Positions 4,543-16,564 of a stretch of DNA of 21,354 nt are shown here, piece after piece; the stretch's first letter is position 1; each line of letters starts with the position of its first letter. This stretch comes from a virus. The notes beneath the pieces are model-generated. The model did no database searches. It was not told the origin of the DNA and worked only from the letters and a program-made list of their open reading frames with translations. The stretch lies in the IMG/VR virus record IMGVR_UViG_3300045135_000278, positions 1 to 21,354 of that record, one strand, 5' to 3'. Made by a program: the position numbers and the translations under genes.

Positions 4543-6080
4543 TGGCTACTCCTTTACAGTCAGCTAGTATTGCCGCACCGGGATTCTACGGTCTTAACAC
4601 ACAAGAGTCTGGGATTACCCTTGAGTCTGGCTTTGCGCTACAGGCTACTAACTGTGTGATTGATAAGTTTGGTAGACTAGGTGCTCGTAAAGGGTGGCAG
4701 TTTCTGGATGAGTCAACAGGGATTGACTTACAAGGTACGCATCGGTTTGTAGATATTAATGGTGCTGAGTACTTTGGTGCTTGGTCTAACACATCATTTT
4801 ATATTTACTCTAGTGGTACACTCAATCCTGTTACGTACACAAATACTCCGGGTATTAACAATGTAACAACAGGTAACTGGCAAGCGGCTACATTGAATGA
4901 TGCGGCTTACTTGTTCCAAGGTGGTTATGAACCTATTTACTTTAGCCCTACCACTGGTGTACTTGATGACATTACTACTCAGGGTAAAGGTACTCCGCCA
5001 CAAGCTAACACAGTATTGTCTGCATATGGTAGACTGTGGGTAGCAAACACACCATCTAACAAGACAACTGTATACTGGTCTAACTTGCTTGATGGTGCAG
5101 AATGGAGACCCGGCACAGGCACTGTAGGCTCACTAGATATCTCAAGTATTCTTGTCAACGGTAACGATGAGATTGTTTCATTAGGTGCTCACAACGGTTA
5201 TTTGATTATCTTCTGTAAGCAGAATATTGTTATCATGGGTGACTCTGACAACAATCAGACATACCTTGATCCTGCTACAATGCAACTTGTCGAAGTAATT
5301 TCTGGTGTTGGCTGTATTGCAAGAGACTCTGTTCGTAACACGGGTACTGATATTGTGTTCTTGTCTGAGTCTGGTGTGCGTAGTCTTGGACGAGTAATTC
5401 AAGAGAAGTCACAACCAATGCGTGAACTTTCACGTAATGTGCGCGATGATCTTGTACAGTTAATTGAATCTGAAACACCATCAAAGATTAAGTCTGTATA
5501 CTCAGAATCAAATGCATTTTACTTGTTAGCATTCCCAACAACACGACAAGTATACTGTTTTGATATGCGAGCACCCTTACAAGATGGCTCATCTCGTGTG
5601 ACTATCTGGAACAATATGGACTTTACATCTTGGTTAGGTTTTGATGGTGAAGTGTATATGACTCATGCGGATGGTCTTGCACGATACACTGGCTACCAAG
5701 ATAATGGTGAGAAGTATCGTATGGTGTACTTCACAAACTACTTTGATCTCAGTGCTCCATCGGCAGTAAAGATTCTCAAGCGATTAGCTATTACTGTAAT
5801 TGGTGCAACAGGTCAAGACTTTGTTGTGAAATCAGGTTTTGATTATAGTGACGTATACAATAACTATGCGTTGACTGTAAAGCAAGCAACAATCTATGAG
5901 TATAACGTTGCAGAATACAATGAGTCTGAATACTCAGGCGGTAACATTGTAGATACTGTACGTGTTGCAGGTTCTGGAGCAGGTTCGGTTATGCAATTAG
6001 GTTTTGAAGCAGACCTTAATGGTGGTGCTTTATCAATTCAAAAGATGGACATCTATGTTAAACAAGGTAGAACACTATGA
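4542..6080 (+). CDS. Tail tube protein B-like (T7 gp12-type nozzle)
   Basis: This 512-residue structural protein starts at the TAATG overlap with tail tube A. The opening (APGFYGLNTQESGITLESGF, then ATNCVIDKFGRLGARKGW) is a recognisable signature of the nozzle/stabilisation protein family in marine podoviruses. The rest is dominated by short beta-strand segments with repeated Gly/Asn turns, including an RLWVANTPSNKTTVYWS region, as expected for a beta-propeller-like nozzle. T7 gp12 is longer (794 residues), so this is a compact version. It forms the distal tail channel that contacts the cell surface. The stop overlaps the next ATG as ATGA (6077-6080). Confidence 0.8.
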   Translation: MATPLQSASIAAPGFYGLNTQESGITLESGFALQATNCVIDKFGRLGARKGWQFLDESTGIDLQGTHRFVDINGAEYFGAWSNTSFYIYSSGTLNPVTYTNTPGINNVTTGNWQAATLNDAAYLFQGGYEPIYFSPTTGVLDDITTQGKGTPPQANTVLSAYGRLWVANTPSNKTTVYWSNLLDGAEWRPGTGTVGSLDISSILVNGNDEIVSLGAHNGYLIIFCKQNIVIMGDSDNNQTYLDPATMQLVEVISGVGCIARDSVRNTGTDIVFLSESGVRSLGRVIQEKSQPMRELSRNVRDDLVQLIESETPSKIKSVYSESNAFYLLAFPTTRQVYCFDMRAPLQDGSSRVTIWNNMDFTSWLGFDGEVYMTHADGLARYTGYQDNGEKYRMVYFTNYFDLSAPSAVKILKRLAITVIGATGQDFVVKSGFDYSDVYNNYALTVKQATIYEYNVAEYNESEYSGGNIVDTVRVAGSGAGSVMQLGFEADLNGGALSIQKMDIYVKQGRTL

Positions 6081-13039: not shown

Positions 13040-13228
13040 TCAGTCTTCAATGATGCCGTAAACATCACCAATCATAATCTTACAGAACGGGATGTTAATA
13101 ATATAACCATCAAAGAAATATACATCAGCCTCGTCAATCCCTTGATCCTTAGTGAATCCTAGTACGGGCTGTCCTTCTACTGTCTCTGCTGACAGTCCAA
13201 ACACGTTGTGAAATCTAGCGGTTACCAT
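13040..13228 (-). CDS. 62-aa protein downstream of nrdB
   Basis: This small protein (MVTARFHNVFGLSAETVEGQ at the start, GDVYGIIED at the end) is acidic and mainly beta-like, with a YFFDGYIINIPFCKIMIG hydrophobic stretch in the middle that is too broken to be a clear membrane helix. The ATG at 13228 overlaps the nrdB stop by seven bases and has AAGGAG ten bases upstream, inside nrdB; a TTG two codons earlier is a weaker alternative. It is the last gene before the terminator. I do not recognise a family; its coupling to nrdB may only reflect operon packing. Confidence 0.6.
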   Translation of the reverse strand: MVTARFHNVFGLSAETVEGQPVLGFTKDQGIDEADVYFFDGYIINIPFCKIMIGDVYGIIED

Positions 13229-14175
13229 CCCCAATCTTCTCCTTCCAATCCATGTGCGTTGTAGTCTGTGACTCTCTTCTCAAAGAAGTTAGAAATAGAA
13301 CTACCTCCCAACAATTCTTCCATCCACGGTAAAGGGTTCTCCTTAACCTTCCAGTTCGTCTTGAGACCAAGTTGGAGTAAACGTCTGTCTGCGAGGTAGC
13401 GAATGTACTGCTTAACATCTGCCGCCGCGAGACCTTCCAAGTCACCCATCTCATACGCAAGATCAATAACCTTGTCTTCAAGTTTGACTGCAGTACGAAA
13501 CATCTCGTATATATCTTTCTTAAAATCATCATTCACTACTCGTGGGTGTTCATCACAGAAGGCTCTGAATAACTTAGCCATACCCTCTGCGTGTTGTGAC
13601 TCGTCACGTACAGACCACTCAACAACAGTACACATACCCGGCATCTTACCGTAACGTTGGTAGTTCAACAGCATAGCAAACGCTGAGAACAGTGACATAC
13701 CTTCGTTGAGTACACTACGTGCAATAGCCATCGCTGTACCCTGATGAGAATGTACGTCAATATCGGACATGAACTCCAGTTTAGCAGACATTTGCTGATA
13801 CTCTAGGAATGCTCCGAACTCTTCTTCAGGTAATCCAAGAGTATCATTAAGGAGGGCATATGCGCGTTGATGGATGAACTCTCTACTAGCAAAGGCTGTG
13901 AGCATCGCCCTGATCTCATTGTTCTTGAACTTGGGTATATAATACTCCAGATAGTTTGTTCCGACTGCCACGTCAGTTTGAGTGAACAACCGCAGAATCT
14001 GGGTGATATGGTTCTTCTCTGCTTGCGATAGCTTATCGGATTTCCAATGGTTGACATCTGTTTGCAATTCCAGTTCATCTTCAATCCAGTGAATACGCTC
14101 GTGTTGTGTTGCGTACTCAACAGCCCAAGGGTAACTAAATGGTTTATAACTTTTGTTCTGTTCCAACAGACTCAT
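13222..14175 (-). CDS. nrdB: Ribonucleotide reductase class I beta subunit
   Basis: NrdB houses the diiron (or related) centre and tyrosyl radical that start reduction of ribonucleotides in NrdA, raising dNTP supply for phage replication. Ligands are visible, numbered from the ATG at 14175: D68, E99 and H102 in REFIHQRAY, E158 in LNEGMSLF, and E192 and H195 in RDESQH. The radical tyrosine is Y106, four residues after H102 as in E. coli Y122. The 317-residue length is normal, and the Trp-containing acidic C-terminus (EGEDWGW) would dock on NrdA. The second ATG (14175) is preferred to 14181 because GGAG is then seven bases away instead of one. The 5' end overlaps a 58-aa ORF by about 30 bases. 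Whether iron or manganese is used cannot be told. Confidence 0.95.
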   Translation of the reverse strand: MSLLEQNKSYKPFSYPWAVEYATQHERIHWIEDELELQTDVNHWKSDKLSQAEKNHITQILRLFTQTDVAVGTNYLEYYIPKFKNNEIRAMLTAFASREFIHQRAYALLNDTLGLPEEEFGAFLEYQQMSAKLEFMSDIDVHSHQGTAMAIARSVLNEGMSLFSAFAMLLNYQRYGKMPGMCTVVEWSVRDESQHAEGMAKLFRAFCDEHPRVVNDDFKKDIYEMFRTAVKLEDKVIDLAYEMGDLEGLAAADVKQYIRYLADRRLLQLGLKTNWKVKENPLPWMEELLGGSSISNFFEKRVTDYNAHGLEGEDWGW

Positions 14176-14320
14176 AAACATTCTCCAGTGTTTGTTCCAG
14201 TGTTTCTAGTCGTTCTGATAATTCAGTGATGATCTCATAACAATCATTCAGTATTCTTTTGTTAAACGGGTCAGAGTCTTTGATCAACTCTAAGCGTTTA
14301 ATTATTGTGCTTCTGTCCAC
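14144..14320 (-). CDS. 58-aa coiled-coil mini-protein
   Basis: A GTG at 14320 opens a 58-residue ORF ending with TAA at 14146-14144. The protein starts VDRSTIIKRLELIKDSDPFN and has a clear heptad-like stretch near ITELSERLETLEQTLENVYE (about residues 31-50), so a short coiled coil that may dimerise is likely. It overlaps the preceding 50-aa gene by 23 bases and the nrdB start by about 32 bases, and it fills the gap between them with no other frame open. GGAG lies ten bases before the GTG. No family is recognised. The GTG start and heavy overlaps leave some doubt, but the amino-acid pattern looks selected. Confidence 0.55.
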   Translation of the reverse strand: MDRSTIIKRLELIKDSDPFNKRILNDCYEIITELSERLETLEQTLENVYESVGTEQKL

Positions 14321-14450
14321 GTACCTTAAGCTCCAGTTCTAATCCAATAATCTTTGCGTGTAAGTTCCTTGCTTTGTTCCACTTCTTGTTGCACTGAGCC
14401 TTCAGAAGTTTGAGGTACACCTTCTTTAGTTTGGTTACTATATGATCCAT
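14298..14450 (-). CDS. 50-aa lysine-rich mini-protein
   Basis: An ATG at 14450 follows a strong AGGAGG ribosome-binding site (14460-14455) with four bases between. It encodes MDHIVTKLKKVYLKLLKAQC, a further Lys/Asn/Trp-rich part and LELELKVRGQKHNN, ending at TAA (14300-14298). The protein is basic and probably helical, with one cysteine (C20). It is the first gene after the 120-bp noncoding gap with the palindrome and repeats, so it heads the nrdB subcluster. No family is recognised; the excellent ribosome-binding site is the main support. Confidence 0.6.
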   Translation of the reverse strand: MDHIVTKLKKVYLKLLKAQCNKKWNKARNLHAKIIGLELELKVRGQKHNN

Positions 14451-14454
14451 GTGA

Positions 14455-14460
14455 CCTCCT
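14455..14460 (-). promoter_or_regulatory. Strong ribosome-binding site for the 50-aa gene
   Basis: AGGAGG on the minus strand, four bases before the ATG at 14450, is the best Shine-Dalgarno match noticed in this arm. It decides the start of an otherwise easily missed mini-gene. Confidence 0.8.
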
Positions 14461-14469
14461 TATGGTTCA

Positions 14470-14527
14470 TATGTTATCCATTTGCAATTATATAAACAGG
14501 TTTTAGATATTATGCTATCCAAACGCA
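14470..14527 (-). repeat. Pair of imperfect direct repeats upstream of the nrdB cluster
   Basis: Two 17-bp copies on the minus strand, 14527-14511 and 14486-14470, match at 13 of 17 positions and share TGGATARCATA. They are offset by 41 bp, close to four helical turns, so a protein could bind both on one face of the DNA. They may be operator half-sites or activator sites. An exact TATAAT (14494-14489) between them has no acceptable -35 box at normal spacing. Confidence 0.4.
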
Positions 14528-14547
14528 CTTTTATGTACATATAAGTG
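14526..14547. promoter_or_regulatory. Palindromic operator-like element in the 120-bp gap
   Basis: A 22-bp inverted repeat, CACTT...AAGTG around a TGTACA centre (14534-14539), pairs at 10 of 11 positions. It runs into a second 8-bp perfect palindrome, GTGTACAC (14545-14552). It sits in the longest noncoding stretch of the window (14451-14570), between the Cys-rich gene and the nrdB subcluster. A dimeric regulator binding site is the natural reading; a cruciform or transcript hairpin is an alternative. The regulator is unknown. Confidence 0.5.
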
Positions 14548-14570
14548 TACACAAACAACACTTTTTTGCA

Positions 14571-14819
14571 CTATTCGTGTAGACTATACTCCTTGTTCTC
14601 TGCATCAATAGCTTTCTCAAGGAGGGCTGTTAAGCCCACCTCAACAAGAAGACGAGTAGCTTCAGGACTGGTCTCGATATCCATCGTTGCACTGCCGTCC
14701 TCATGCTCTTGCAAATTACTCACTGTAATGAGTGAAATGTCATTCGTTCTTCCTATACTACAATCCATCTTATGAGCACCGTCTCTCATGTAACACTCCG
14801 GACAATTTACCCCTGACAT
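14571..14819 (-). CDS. Cys-rich small protein between nrdA and nrdB
   Basis: From the ATG at 14819 this is an 82-residue protein. C6, C9, H16 and C20 (MSGVNCPECYMRDGAHKMDC) form a C-x2-C-x6-H-x3-C pattern that could bind zinc or act as a dithiol. The rest is beta-like (ISLITVSNLQ, SATMDIETSP) and ends with a helix (ATRLLVEVGLTALLEKAIDA). An ATG at 14828 is in frame but lies one base after the GAGG site, so the second ATG is preferred. The start overlaps the nrdA stop in another frame. Being next to reductase genes, it could be a redox or regulatory partner, but it lacks the size and motif of glutaredoxin or thioredoxin. The function is unknown. Confidence 0.65.
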   Translation of the reverse strand: MSGVNCPECYMRDGAHKMDCSIGRTNDISLITVSNLQEHEDGSATMDIETSPEATRLLVEVGLTALLEKAIDAENKEYSLHE

Positions 14820-16564
14820 GATACACATACCTCATCATCTGTAAAGTCTTTCAAAGCATTGCGATCTACCTGCGTTCCAACCTTCTCAGCAGTAACACCC
14901 GCAGTCGTGCGTAAGTAGTATAGTCCTTTAAGGCCTTCCTTCCACGCCTTGAGATGCACTTGATTAACAATAGCCTTGTCAGTACCGGACGGGAAGAAGA
15001 CGTTAACACTCTGGCCTTGGCATATGAAATCCTGTCTCTTAGCGGCGTGTTCAACAACCCATCCCTGATCCAACTCAAACGCTGTCTTAAATGTTGCTTT
15101 CTCATCGTTGGATAAGAACTCCAAGTGCTGTACAGAGCCTTCGTTCTCAATGATAGACTGCCAAACCTTCTTGGTATTCTGCCCGTGTTCATTCAGTACT
15201 GCCTCCAAGTATGGATTACGAACCGTGTGAGATCCTGCTCTCGTCCGATGCACATAGCAATTAGATATGCGAGGCTCAATAGAGGCAGAGCAACCGCATA
15301 GGATACTGCTGTTAGCGTTAGGAGCGATAGCCAGAAGATGCATATTACGCACACCTGTACCACGTCCATCAGGACACTCGCCACGCTCGATAGCCAACTG
15401 GTATGTTGAGTACTGAGCCTGTTGCTTGATGTCCTGAAAGATCTTGTAGTTCTCACTTGCGGCCTGCCATGATTCCCAAGCTATTCCTTTGGATTGGAGG
15501 TAGCCGTGGAAGCCCATTGCTCCAAGACCGACTGAACGTTCTCTGTATGCTGAGTAAACAGCTTTTGATAATTGTTCTGGTGCGTTGTCAATAAAGTATT
15601 GAAGCACGTTGTCCAAGAATCGGATAAGGTCTCCAACCATGCCGCTTGTTCTCCACTCATCATAGAGTTCAAGGTTGACTGAGGAGAGGCAACAGACTGC
15701 TGTTCGCTCTTCATTCGTTGCGAGATGGATTTCATTGCAGAGGTTGCTACCATTAATTGTGAGTCCAAGTGCTTTCTGGCGTTCTGGTAAAGCTCTTCTG
15801 GCTGTGTCGATAAAGTTAAGGTATGGACTGCCAGTTCTGAAGCGAGCTTCAAGGATTCGTTGCCATAGTCTACGAGCTTGGATTGTATCTCTGACAATTC
15901 CTGTATTCGGGTCTGTAAGATTCCATTCTGTATCATTGATTACCGCCTCCATAAAAGCGTCAGTGATATTCACTGCATTAAAAAGATTAAAACATTTGCG
16001 ATTGATGTCGCCACCAGTCGGTACTTTGAAGGAGATGAACTCCTCGATGTCAGGATGCGACACATCTAGGTAAGCCGCATAGCTACCCTTCCTTGTCTTG
16101 CCCTGTTTGTAAGCAGTCATCTGACTGTCCACTACTTTCATGAATGGGATCGGGCCGGGTGCTTTGTCGCTGATACCACGCACGTCTCCCCAATGTCCTC
16201 CTACGCCTCCTCCTTTGACGCTGAGCCAAGCTACTTCACCATTATGTTCAATAAGAGAATCAAGATTGTCGCCCACGTAAGTAAGGAAACAACTAATAGG
16301 CAAGCCCCTATTGCCTCTGCCATGTTCAGGTGCGTTCGACAACACAGGTGACGCAAACATAAACCAACCTTTAGAAGCATAGTCGTAAATGCGTTGAGCA
16401 AGATCGAGGTCATCGTAACAATAAGCAACTGCGGCACGTGCAAAAGCTTGTTGAGGAGACTCCTCATGTTCGAGCATATAGTAATCACGCATGAGCGTAA
16501 CCGCTTGCTCACTAAGGCGACTGTCTCTTTCATAGTCAATCGTTATCCCAAGGTGTTGAGTCAT
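14807..16564 (-). CDS. nrdA: Ribonucleotide reductase class I alpha subunit
   Basis: This 585-residue catalytic subunit converts ribonucleoside diphosphates to deoxy forms using the radical from NrdB. The expected active-site residues are present: C92 in PISCFLT (E. coli C225), N274, C276 and E278 in SNLCNE (N437, C439, E441), C291 (C462), the radical-transfer pair Y549-Y550 in GLYYLRT, and the C-terminal redox pair C580 and C583 (CVSCQG). It is much shorter than E. coli NrdA (761) because the N-terminal ATP-cone domain is absent, so the overall-activity switch that lets dATP shut down the enzyme should be missing. The ATG at 16564 overlaps the preceding 58-aa gene by 29 bases, with GGAG ten bases upstream. 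Several ORFs on the opposite strand and other frames are shadows. Confidence 0.95.
   Translation of the reverse strand: MTQHLGITIDYERDSRLSEQAVTLMRDYYMLEHEESPQQAFARAAVAYCYDDLDLAQRIYDYASKGWFMFASPVLSNAPEHGRGNRGLPISCFLTYVGDNLDSLIEHNGEVAWLSVKGGGVGGHWGDVRGISDKAPGPIPFMKVVDSQMTAYKQGKTRKGSYAAYLDVSHPDIEEFISFKVPTGGDINRKCFNLFNAVNITDAFMEAVINDTEWNLTDPNTGIVRDTIQARRLWQRILEARFRTGSPYLNFIDTARRALPERQKALGLTINGSNLCNEIHLATNEERTAVCCLSSVNLELYDEWRTSGMVGDLIRFLDNVLQYFIDNAPEQLSKAVYSAYRERSVGLGAMGFHGYLQSKGIAWESWQAASENYKIFQDIKQQAQYSTYQLAIERGECPDGRGTGVRNMHLLAIAPNANSSILCGCSASIEPRISNCYVHRTRAGSHTVRNPYLEAVLNEHGQNTKKVWQSIIENEGSVQHLEFLSNDEKATFKTAFELDQGWVVEHAAKRQDFICQGQSVNVFFPSGTDKAIVNQVHLKAWKEGLKGLYYLRTTAGVTAEKVGTQVDRNALKDFTDDEVCVSCQG

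Follow-up and report, generated by a model that had tools for sequence, protein, structure and literature searches.

The stretch of DNA analysed here (the window) is a 21-kb fragment of a marine phage from IMG/VR (21,354 nucleotides), in which a noncoding gap between nrdA and nrdB holds a palindrome and a pair of direct repeats. The locus raises the question of whether these elements form a regulated promoter, as an earlier note had proposed, and, if so, which genes it serves and which protein reads it. On the minus strand, the genes run from helicase and DNA polymerase to exonuclease, phosphoesterase and nrdA and then to nrdB, and the virion genes lie on the plus strand. The polymerase shares 46% identity with its counterpart in Pelagibacter phage HTVC103P, and when the annotated phage collection was searched at the DNA level with positions 13800-15400, no close relative appeared. 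The gap with the element is flanked by an 85-aa ORF and a 50-aa ORF, both on the minus strand (Table 1). Pfam and PHROGs searches gave no match for the 50-aa ORF, and a Pfam search gave none for the 58-aa ORF that follows it. A consensus scan of 13800-15200 detected no sigma-70 promoter in the gap, the -10 candidates of the window being without a -35, and the number of intrinsic terminator-like sites in the same region was zero.

Table 1. Positions of genes, putative operators, repeats and promoter-like motifs around the nrdA-nrdB gap of the window.
Feature	Positions	Strand	Basis or remark
nrdA	14807..16564	-	ORF list and phrog_84
85-aa ORF, upstream of the element	14571..14828	-	ORF list; relatives in 4 loci
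GTCTACAC, 32 bp from GTGTACAC	14577-14584		
Possible weak upstream operator copy (ACACGAATAGTGCAAAAAAGTG), 33 bp from the operator	14559..14580	-	fits the 32-33 bp phasing; scores only -7.3 bits
GTGTACAC, overlapping the outer arm of the operator	14545..14552	.	
22-bp operator palindrome; minus strand CACTTATATGTACATAAAAGTG	14526..14547	-	24.6 bits, matrix from bacterial copies only
Upstream copy of the 41-bp-phased direct repeat	14511..14527	-	GGATAGCATA at 14511-14520
Possible -10 hexamer CATAAT, 11 nt after the operator	14509..14514	-	
Second possible -10 hexamer TATAAT, without a good -35	14487..14492	-	
Downstream copy of the 41-bp-phased direct repeat	14470..14486	-	GGATAACATA at 14470-14479
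AGGAGG ribosome-binding site, before the 50-aa ORF	14455..14460	-	
50-aa ORF, first gene downstream of the element	14298..14450	-	start region common to L017
58-aa ORF, before nrdB	14144..14320	-	ORF list
nrdB	13222..14181	-	ORF list and phrog_86

The nearly perfect 22-bp palindrome described in the earlier note, CACTTTTATGTACATATAAGTG with the centre TGTACA, was confirmed, with 10 of its 11 base pairs matching. It is the strongest palindrome of the 21-kb window (score 8; the next scores 6), and its score was reached by 15 of 2000 dinucleotide shuffles of 14451-14570. The adjoining palindrome of the same note, GTGTACAC, is also present, but it shares the outer CAC with the 22-bp palindrome, so that it represents an extension and not a separate element. 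The corresponding pair, GT[CGT]TACAC-N24-GTGTA[CGA]AC, was found in 13 of the 58 non-redundant nrdA-nrdB gaps described below and nowhere in their flanks. The two imperfect 17-bp repeats offset by 41 bp, which are identical at 13 of 17 positions, exist as reported; they are weak on their own, since 31 of 300 shuffles did as well, yet they recur in relatives.

The surroundings of the element were compared using 80 loci from a scan with NrdB and 4 more from a scan with the 85-aa ORF. Both nrd genes are held by 79 sequences including the window, and 58 non-redundant gaps remained after 21 of the 79 were dropped as near-duplicates. In the 79 sequences, nrdA and nrdB are separated by 123 to 1499 bp, and the flanking proteins are 85-97% identical to those of the window. 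The gaps contain small ORFs and palindromic modules, and hardly any of these modules occur in the flanks (499 kb). Sequence comparison marks the nrdA-nrdB gap as a hypervariable insertion site and a hotspot for small ORFs. The palindrome, which we interpret as an operator, that is, a predicted binding site for a dimeric protein, is present in 23 of the 79 sequences. Among the non-redundant gaps, the 19 with the operator have a median length of 840 bp, compared with 422 bp for the 39 without it. On the nrdB tree, its distribution needs 15 changes, of which at least 11 are forced by well-supported branches, and the nearest sisters of the window, L002 and L003 (NrdB 97% identical), have a nrdA-nrdB gap of 147 bp without the element. 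This scattered occurrence and the absence from the nearest sisters indicate a mosaic cassette that is gained and lost. Conservation of the elements was found in relatives that keep the gap; the element goes with the inserted small-ORF cassettes, and nrdB is simply the last gene downstream. The gaps also contain a GCATAG-N5-CTATGC hairpin (25 of 58 gaps, never in flanks; for example, L010, L027, L049, and L075), which often lies directly before the ribosome-binding site of the first small ORF of the gap and whose loop occurs in both orientations (TATTC and GAATA).

The proposal of a regulated promoter therefore needs to be divided. The element is operator-like, promoter-associated and conserved where the insert is retained, but a regulator of the nrd genes as such is not supported, because the gap is hypervariable, the nearest sisters lack the element, and the same operator stands before unrelated phage genes and a candidate bacterial defence gene. 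NrdR boxes have the 16-bp consensus ACACWATATATWGTGT and occur in pairs before nrd genes. They resemble the arrangement seen here in their paired dyads about three helical turns apart and in the nrd neighbourhood, but their sequence is unlike that of the window operator, and the comparison suggested by the earlier note gave no match with up to 3 mismatches in the whole window, which rules out an NrdR box. A general phage repeat or promoter was also ruled out, as two modules were nearly always single-locus in 26 longer contigs.

Outside the nrd loci, the operator recurs in other phages and in bacteria. The pattern CACTTNTAWGNNCATANAAGTG gave 33 stretches in viral contigs, comprising 2 nrd loci, 15 with a variant and 16 non-nrd stretches. 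The 16 phage stretches carry the operator without nrd genes nearby, in about 7 unrelated contexts, near a holin gene, a T4-like DNA polymerase, RegA-like genes, and nameless genes; several of these operators are in tandem 32-33 bp apart or lie beside sigma-70-like promoters. The variant, CACTTATAAGTACATAAAAGTG, was set aside as unrelated, being terminator-like in the three stretches that were read (L141, L144, and L172), where the palindrome is flanked by aag...ctt. With a stricter pattern, 72 stretches were found in genome contigs, mostly of Gammaproteobacteria, against a hand-estimated chance expectation of about one in 257 Gb; L178 and L232 look like chance matches inside ORFs and were kept in the denominator of 72. 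In 60 of the 72 stretches, a second copy is spaced 32 or 33 bp from the first, compared with 3.8% for shuffled flanks under a slightly stricter cut, and marine Gammaproteobacteria carry the operator in 2-5 tandem copies 32-33 bp apart.

A matrix was built from 65 distinct second copies in bacteria, on which the search pattern had placed no constraint. With this matrix from bacterial copies alone, the window palindrome scores 24.6 bits, and 28 sites of at least 13 bits were found in 32.6 kb of phage gaps versus 1 in 495 kb of flanks (58 loci), showing that these sites are confined to the gaps. Paired operators in the phage gaps mostly have a spacing of 32-33 bp. The window itself contains a single strong copy; a possible second copy, 33 bp upstream, is weak (-7.3 bits) and overlaps the 3' end of the 85-aa ORF, which ends at 14571. 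Strong second copies are present in relatives such as L010, L042, and L043. The single strong copy and the chance level of the repeats alone would fit a chance match or a relic, a leftover fragment without function. However, this is hardly credible in view of the contrast between gaps (28 sites) and flanks (1 site) and of the repeated occurrence in unrelated phages.

The operator is also associated with promoter-like sequences. In the window, a -10-like hexamer, CATAAT, follows the operator at 11 nt downstream. Of 66 distinct bacterial upstream regions, 27 have a -10-like hexamer 10 nt behind the last operator, and 43 have some hexamer matching at 5 or more of 6 positions no further than 25 nt from it. 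In the phage gaps, 12 of 19 have a -10-like hexamer after the operator versus 33% in shuffles. In promoters with that hexamer, the operator occupies the -35 position.

In bacteria, the operator is found beside one particular gene. In 45 of the 72 stretches, the operator is followed after 10-112 bp by the start of an AAA_14-DUF4143 ATPase gene, and decayed remnants of this gene are found in 3 more. In the other 24, the ATPase was not found near the operator; a few of these operators adjoin unrelated genes, and in L212 the operator lies between convergent genes. Conversely, the operator is present at each of the 37 full-length ATPase genes with 67% identity or more, and 36 of these genes have two or more copies. 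The operator array of these gammaproteobacterial genes is described here from sequence. PADLOC names the gene PDC-S01, a candidate defence system. In the passages of PMC12988326 that deal with it, PDC-S01 is reported to be widespread and to rank fourth in frequency among (candidate) defence systems of prokaryotes, and most such candidates are said to await validation. Searches of open-licence PubMed Central found no publication on PDC-S01 or DUF4143 regulation and no relevant paper for the operator sequence, in both cases among the matches listed, and no paper linking DUF4143 with AAA_14 or phage defence.

The spacing of the upstream repeats is retained in distant members of the ATPase clade. 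In a set of members with 27-55% identity, from which genes above 55% identity and short upstream regions were left out, repeats 32 or 33 bp apart were found upstream of 28 of 33 genes, with a sequence specific to each lineage; any other spacing was seen in at most 5 of the 33, with 0.74 per spacing in shuffles. Bacteroidota members of the clade showed the 32-33 bp phasing in 18 of 24 upstream regions (6 of 30 were dropped as near-duplicates), compared with only 2 of 29 for other DUF4143 families in Bacteroidota (1 of 30 was dropped for lack of a usable ORF). Because the spacing stays fixed even as the repeats diverge together with the protein, the ATPase probably binds its own operator, and the two probably co-evolve. 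The 32-33 bp rule defines a directly testable PDC-S01 operator and suggests self-regulation. The structure model of the ATPase was too poor (mean pLDDT 59, 26-row alignment) to show a DNA-binding domain, and a sequence search found no solved relative. PDC-S01-clade genes with upstream repeats 32-33 bp apart, from two phyla, are found in L270-L297, L335-L342, L382-L385, and L416-L445.

The operator could alternatively be bound by a chromosomal or defence-island regulator, such as a HipB-like XRE protein, for which the ATPase gene would be just one target. HipA/HipB-like genes do occur near several operators, some of them without the ATPase, and operator arrays without the ATPase exist, as would be expected for such a binder. 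In the family of L229 (Shewanella), however, the operator within 3 mismatches is present in only 37 of 152 genomes, usually at one locus, and the ATPase (E 1e-100 or better) in 25 of 152; since most genomes of the family lack the operator, no wide regulon is indicated. The 32-33 bp phasing, moreover, tracks the ATPase clade across two phyla despite the changed sequence, and arrays that follow one gene across lineages argue against a general host regulator. The HipB-type genes that were looked at had different upstream repeats, as judged by eye. We therefore regard another binder as unlikely. Operator copies near HipB/HipA-like gene pairs were seen in L197, L209, L223, L226, L237, and L356, some of them without the ATPase.

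Taken together, the window element is probably a mobile promoter-operator cassette that carries the operator of a host defence gene of the PDC-S01 ATPase family. The operator family would sit over the -35 region of the AAA_14-DUF4143 gene in marine Gammaproteobacteria, where the ATPase itself is probably the binder, and the phage cassette, placed in the hypervariable nrdA-nrdB site, would read into the 50-aa ORF, the 58-aa ORF and nrdB. The host copy of the ATPase might then act on the phage promoter. Because the operator covers the -35 position, repression is the first guess for this effect, with activation or a decoy role as alternatives. The window copy shares with the gammaproteobacterial array the 22-bp dyad CACTTWTATG-YR-CATAWAAGTG and the -10-like hexamer close behind, and the phage family shares the 32-33 bp phasing of that array. 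The window copy differs in its location, ahead of small ORFs and nrdB of a phage, in its core TGTACA in place of the usual TGCGCA, and in having one strong copy. As no AAA_14-DUF4143 gene is among the downstream genes (the 50-aa ORF, the 58-aa ORF and nrdB), the window element is a homologue of the operator and not the same gene system.

Through these copies, promoters of phages are connected with a defence gene of the host, and a phage promoter may thus be read by a protein of the host's defences; the small phage ORFs are candidates for counter-defence. A more extended interpretation is tentative and rather doubtful: several unrelated marine phages would have acquired the self-operator of the host defence ATPase PDC-S01, allowing a phage promoter to sense the defence protein or a phage decoy to titrate it, and the small ORFs would be counter-defence genes switched by host carriage of the system. 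A comparable arrangement is described for RptR in the part of PMC12255303 that treats its operators, where a self-repressing protein runs a defence island via tandem palindromes over the promoter. The RptR operators are likewise palindromic tandem sites over a defence-island promoter. However, as that part of PMC12255303 gives them, they consist of 9-bp repeats whose 6-bp core is TAGCTA, and they overlap the -10, and both the protein and the spacing are different.

The palindromes might also act in the transcript, as hairpins of a leader RNA controlling processing, stability or translation of the small ORFs. Several modules fold well (z -3.4 in L010, -2.6 in L042, and -2.1 in L076), and the GCATAG-N5-CTATGC hairpin stands right before a ribosome-binding site in many of the gaps that have it. 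The window segment itself, however, folds in an ordinary way (z -1.4), and Rfam gave no match in 14200-14850 with E up to 1. The innermost pair of the palindrome changes from TA in the window to CG in L004 (the same contig as L140), a difference that is relevant to a DNA dyad but has no bearing on a hairpin loop. If the last operator is followed by a -10, which is the case for many bacterial copies, the operator would fall outside the transcript. A leader RNA is thus quite unlikely.

The 41-bp-phased repeats behave as a further module of these gaps. The pair, roughly GGATARYATA...GGATARYATA, was found in 17 of the 58 non-redundant gaps, and when pairs were counted without a fixed distance, 15 of 15 were exactly 41 bp apart. 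The interior between the repeats has at least four different sequences. These repeats are probably a second type of operator, for another dimeric regulator. A single GGATAACATAGTATTCC unit is present in L044 and two units 41 bp apart in L076, as if one unit had been deleted or added via recombination between repeats.

Such changes recall the PeSL elements of T4-type phages, which, as outlined in part of PMC4503421, combine an early promoter and a terminator-like stem-loop at sites where small ORFs shuffle. The window could accordingly hold a shuffling cassette of this kind, in which small ORFs spread by recombination at the palindromes and no regulator takes part. The likeness lies in cassettes of promoter and stem-loop where small ORFs are shuffled; the mosaic content of the gaps, the at least 11 changes that the operator needs on the nrdB tree, and L044, which resembles a one-repeat deletion of the two-repeat form of L076, are consistent with it. 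However, shuffling accounts for mobility and not for the fixed phasing of 32-33 and 41 bp, and it does not explain why the sequence coincides with operators that bacteria carry before one gene. Unlike PeSL as presented in that part of the source, the window region has no terminator-like site and its sequence matches a bacterial operator. We therefore consider a cassette without a regulator improbable, and the probable reading is still a cassette carrying the operator of the PDC-S01 family.

In viral contigs at large, the 41-bp pair was found in 30 stretches, 18 of which are nrd loci. Judged by eye, L375 and L380 look real among the 12 non-nrd stretches, and L376 partly so. In bacteria, the pair was found in 0 of 398 Pseudomonadota genomes. 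The E. coli-type HipB operator, TATCC-N8-GGATA, was rejected, with no match in 14451-14570 at up to one mismatch and 2 matches elsewhere in the window. L375 has two perfect GATAATATATTATC dyads spaced 41 bp. In L380, a GATAAYATRTTRTC-type dyad pair 41 bp apart (~6014-6070) lies upstream of a HipA-like gene, a single case that hints at the type of regulator for the 41-bp repeats of the window.
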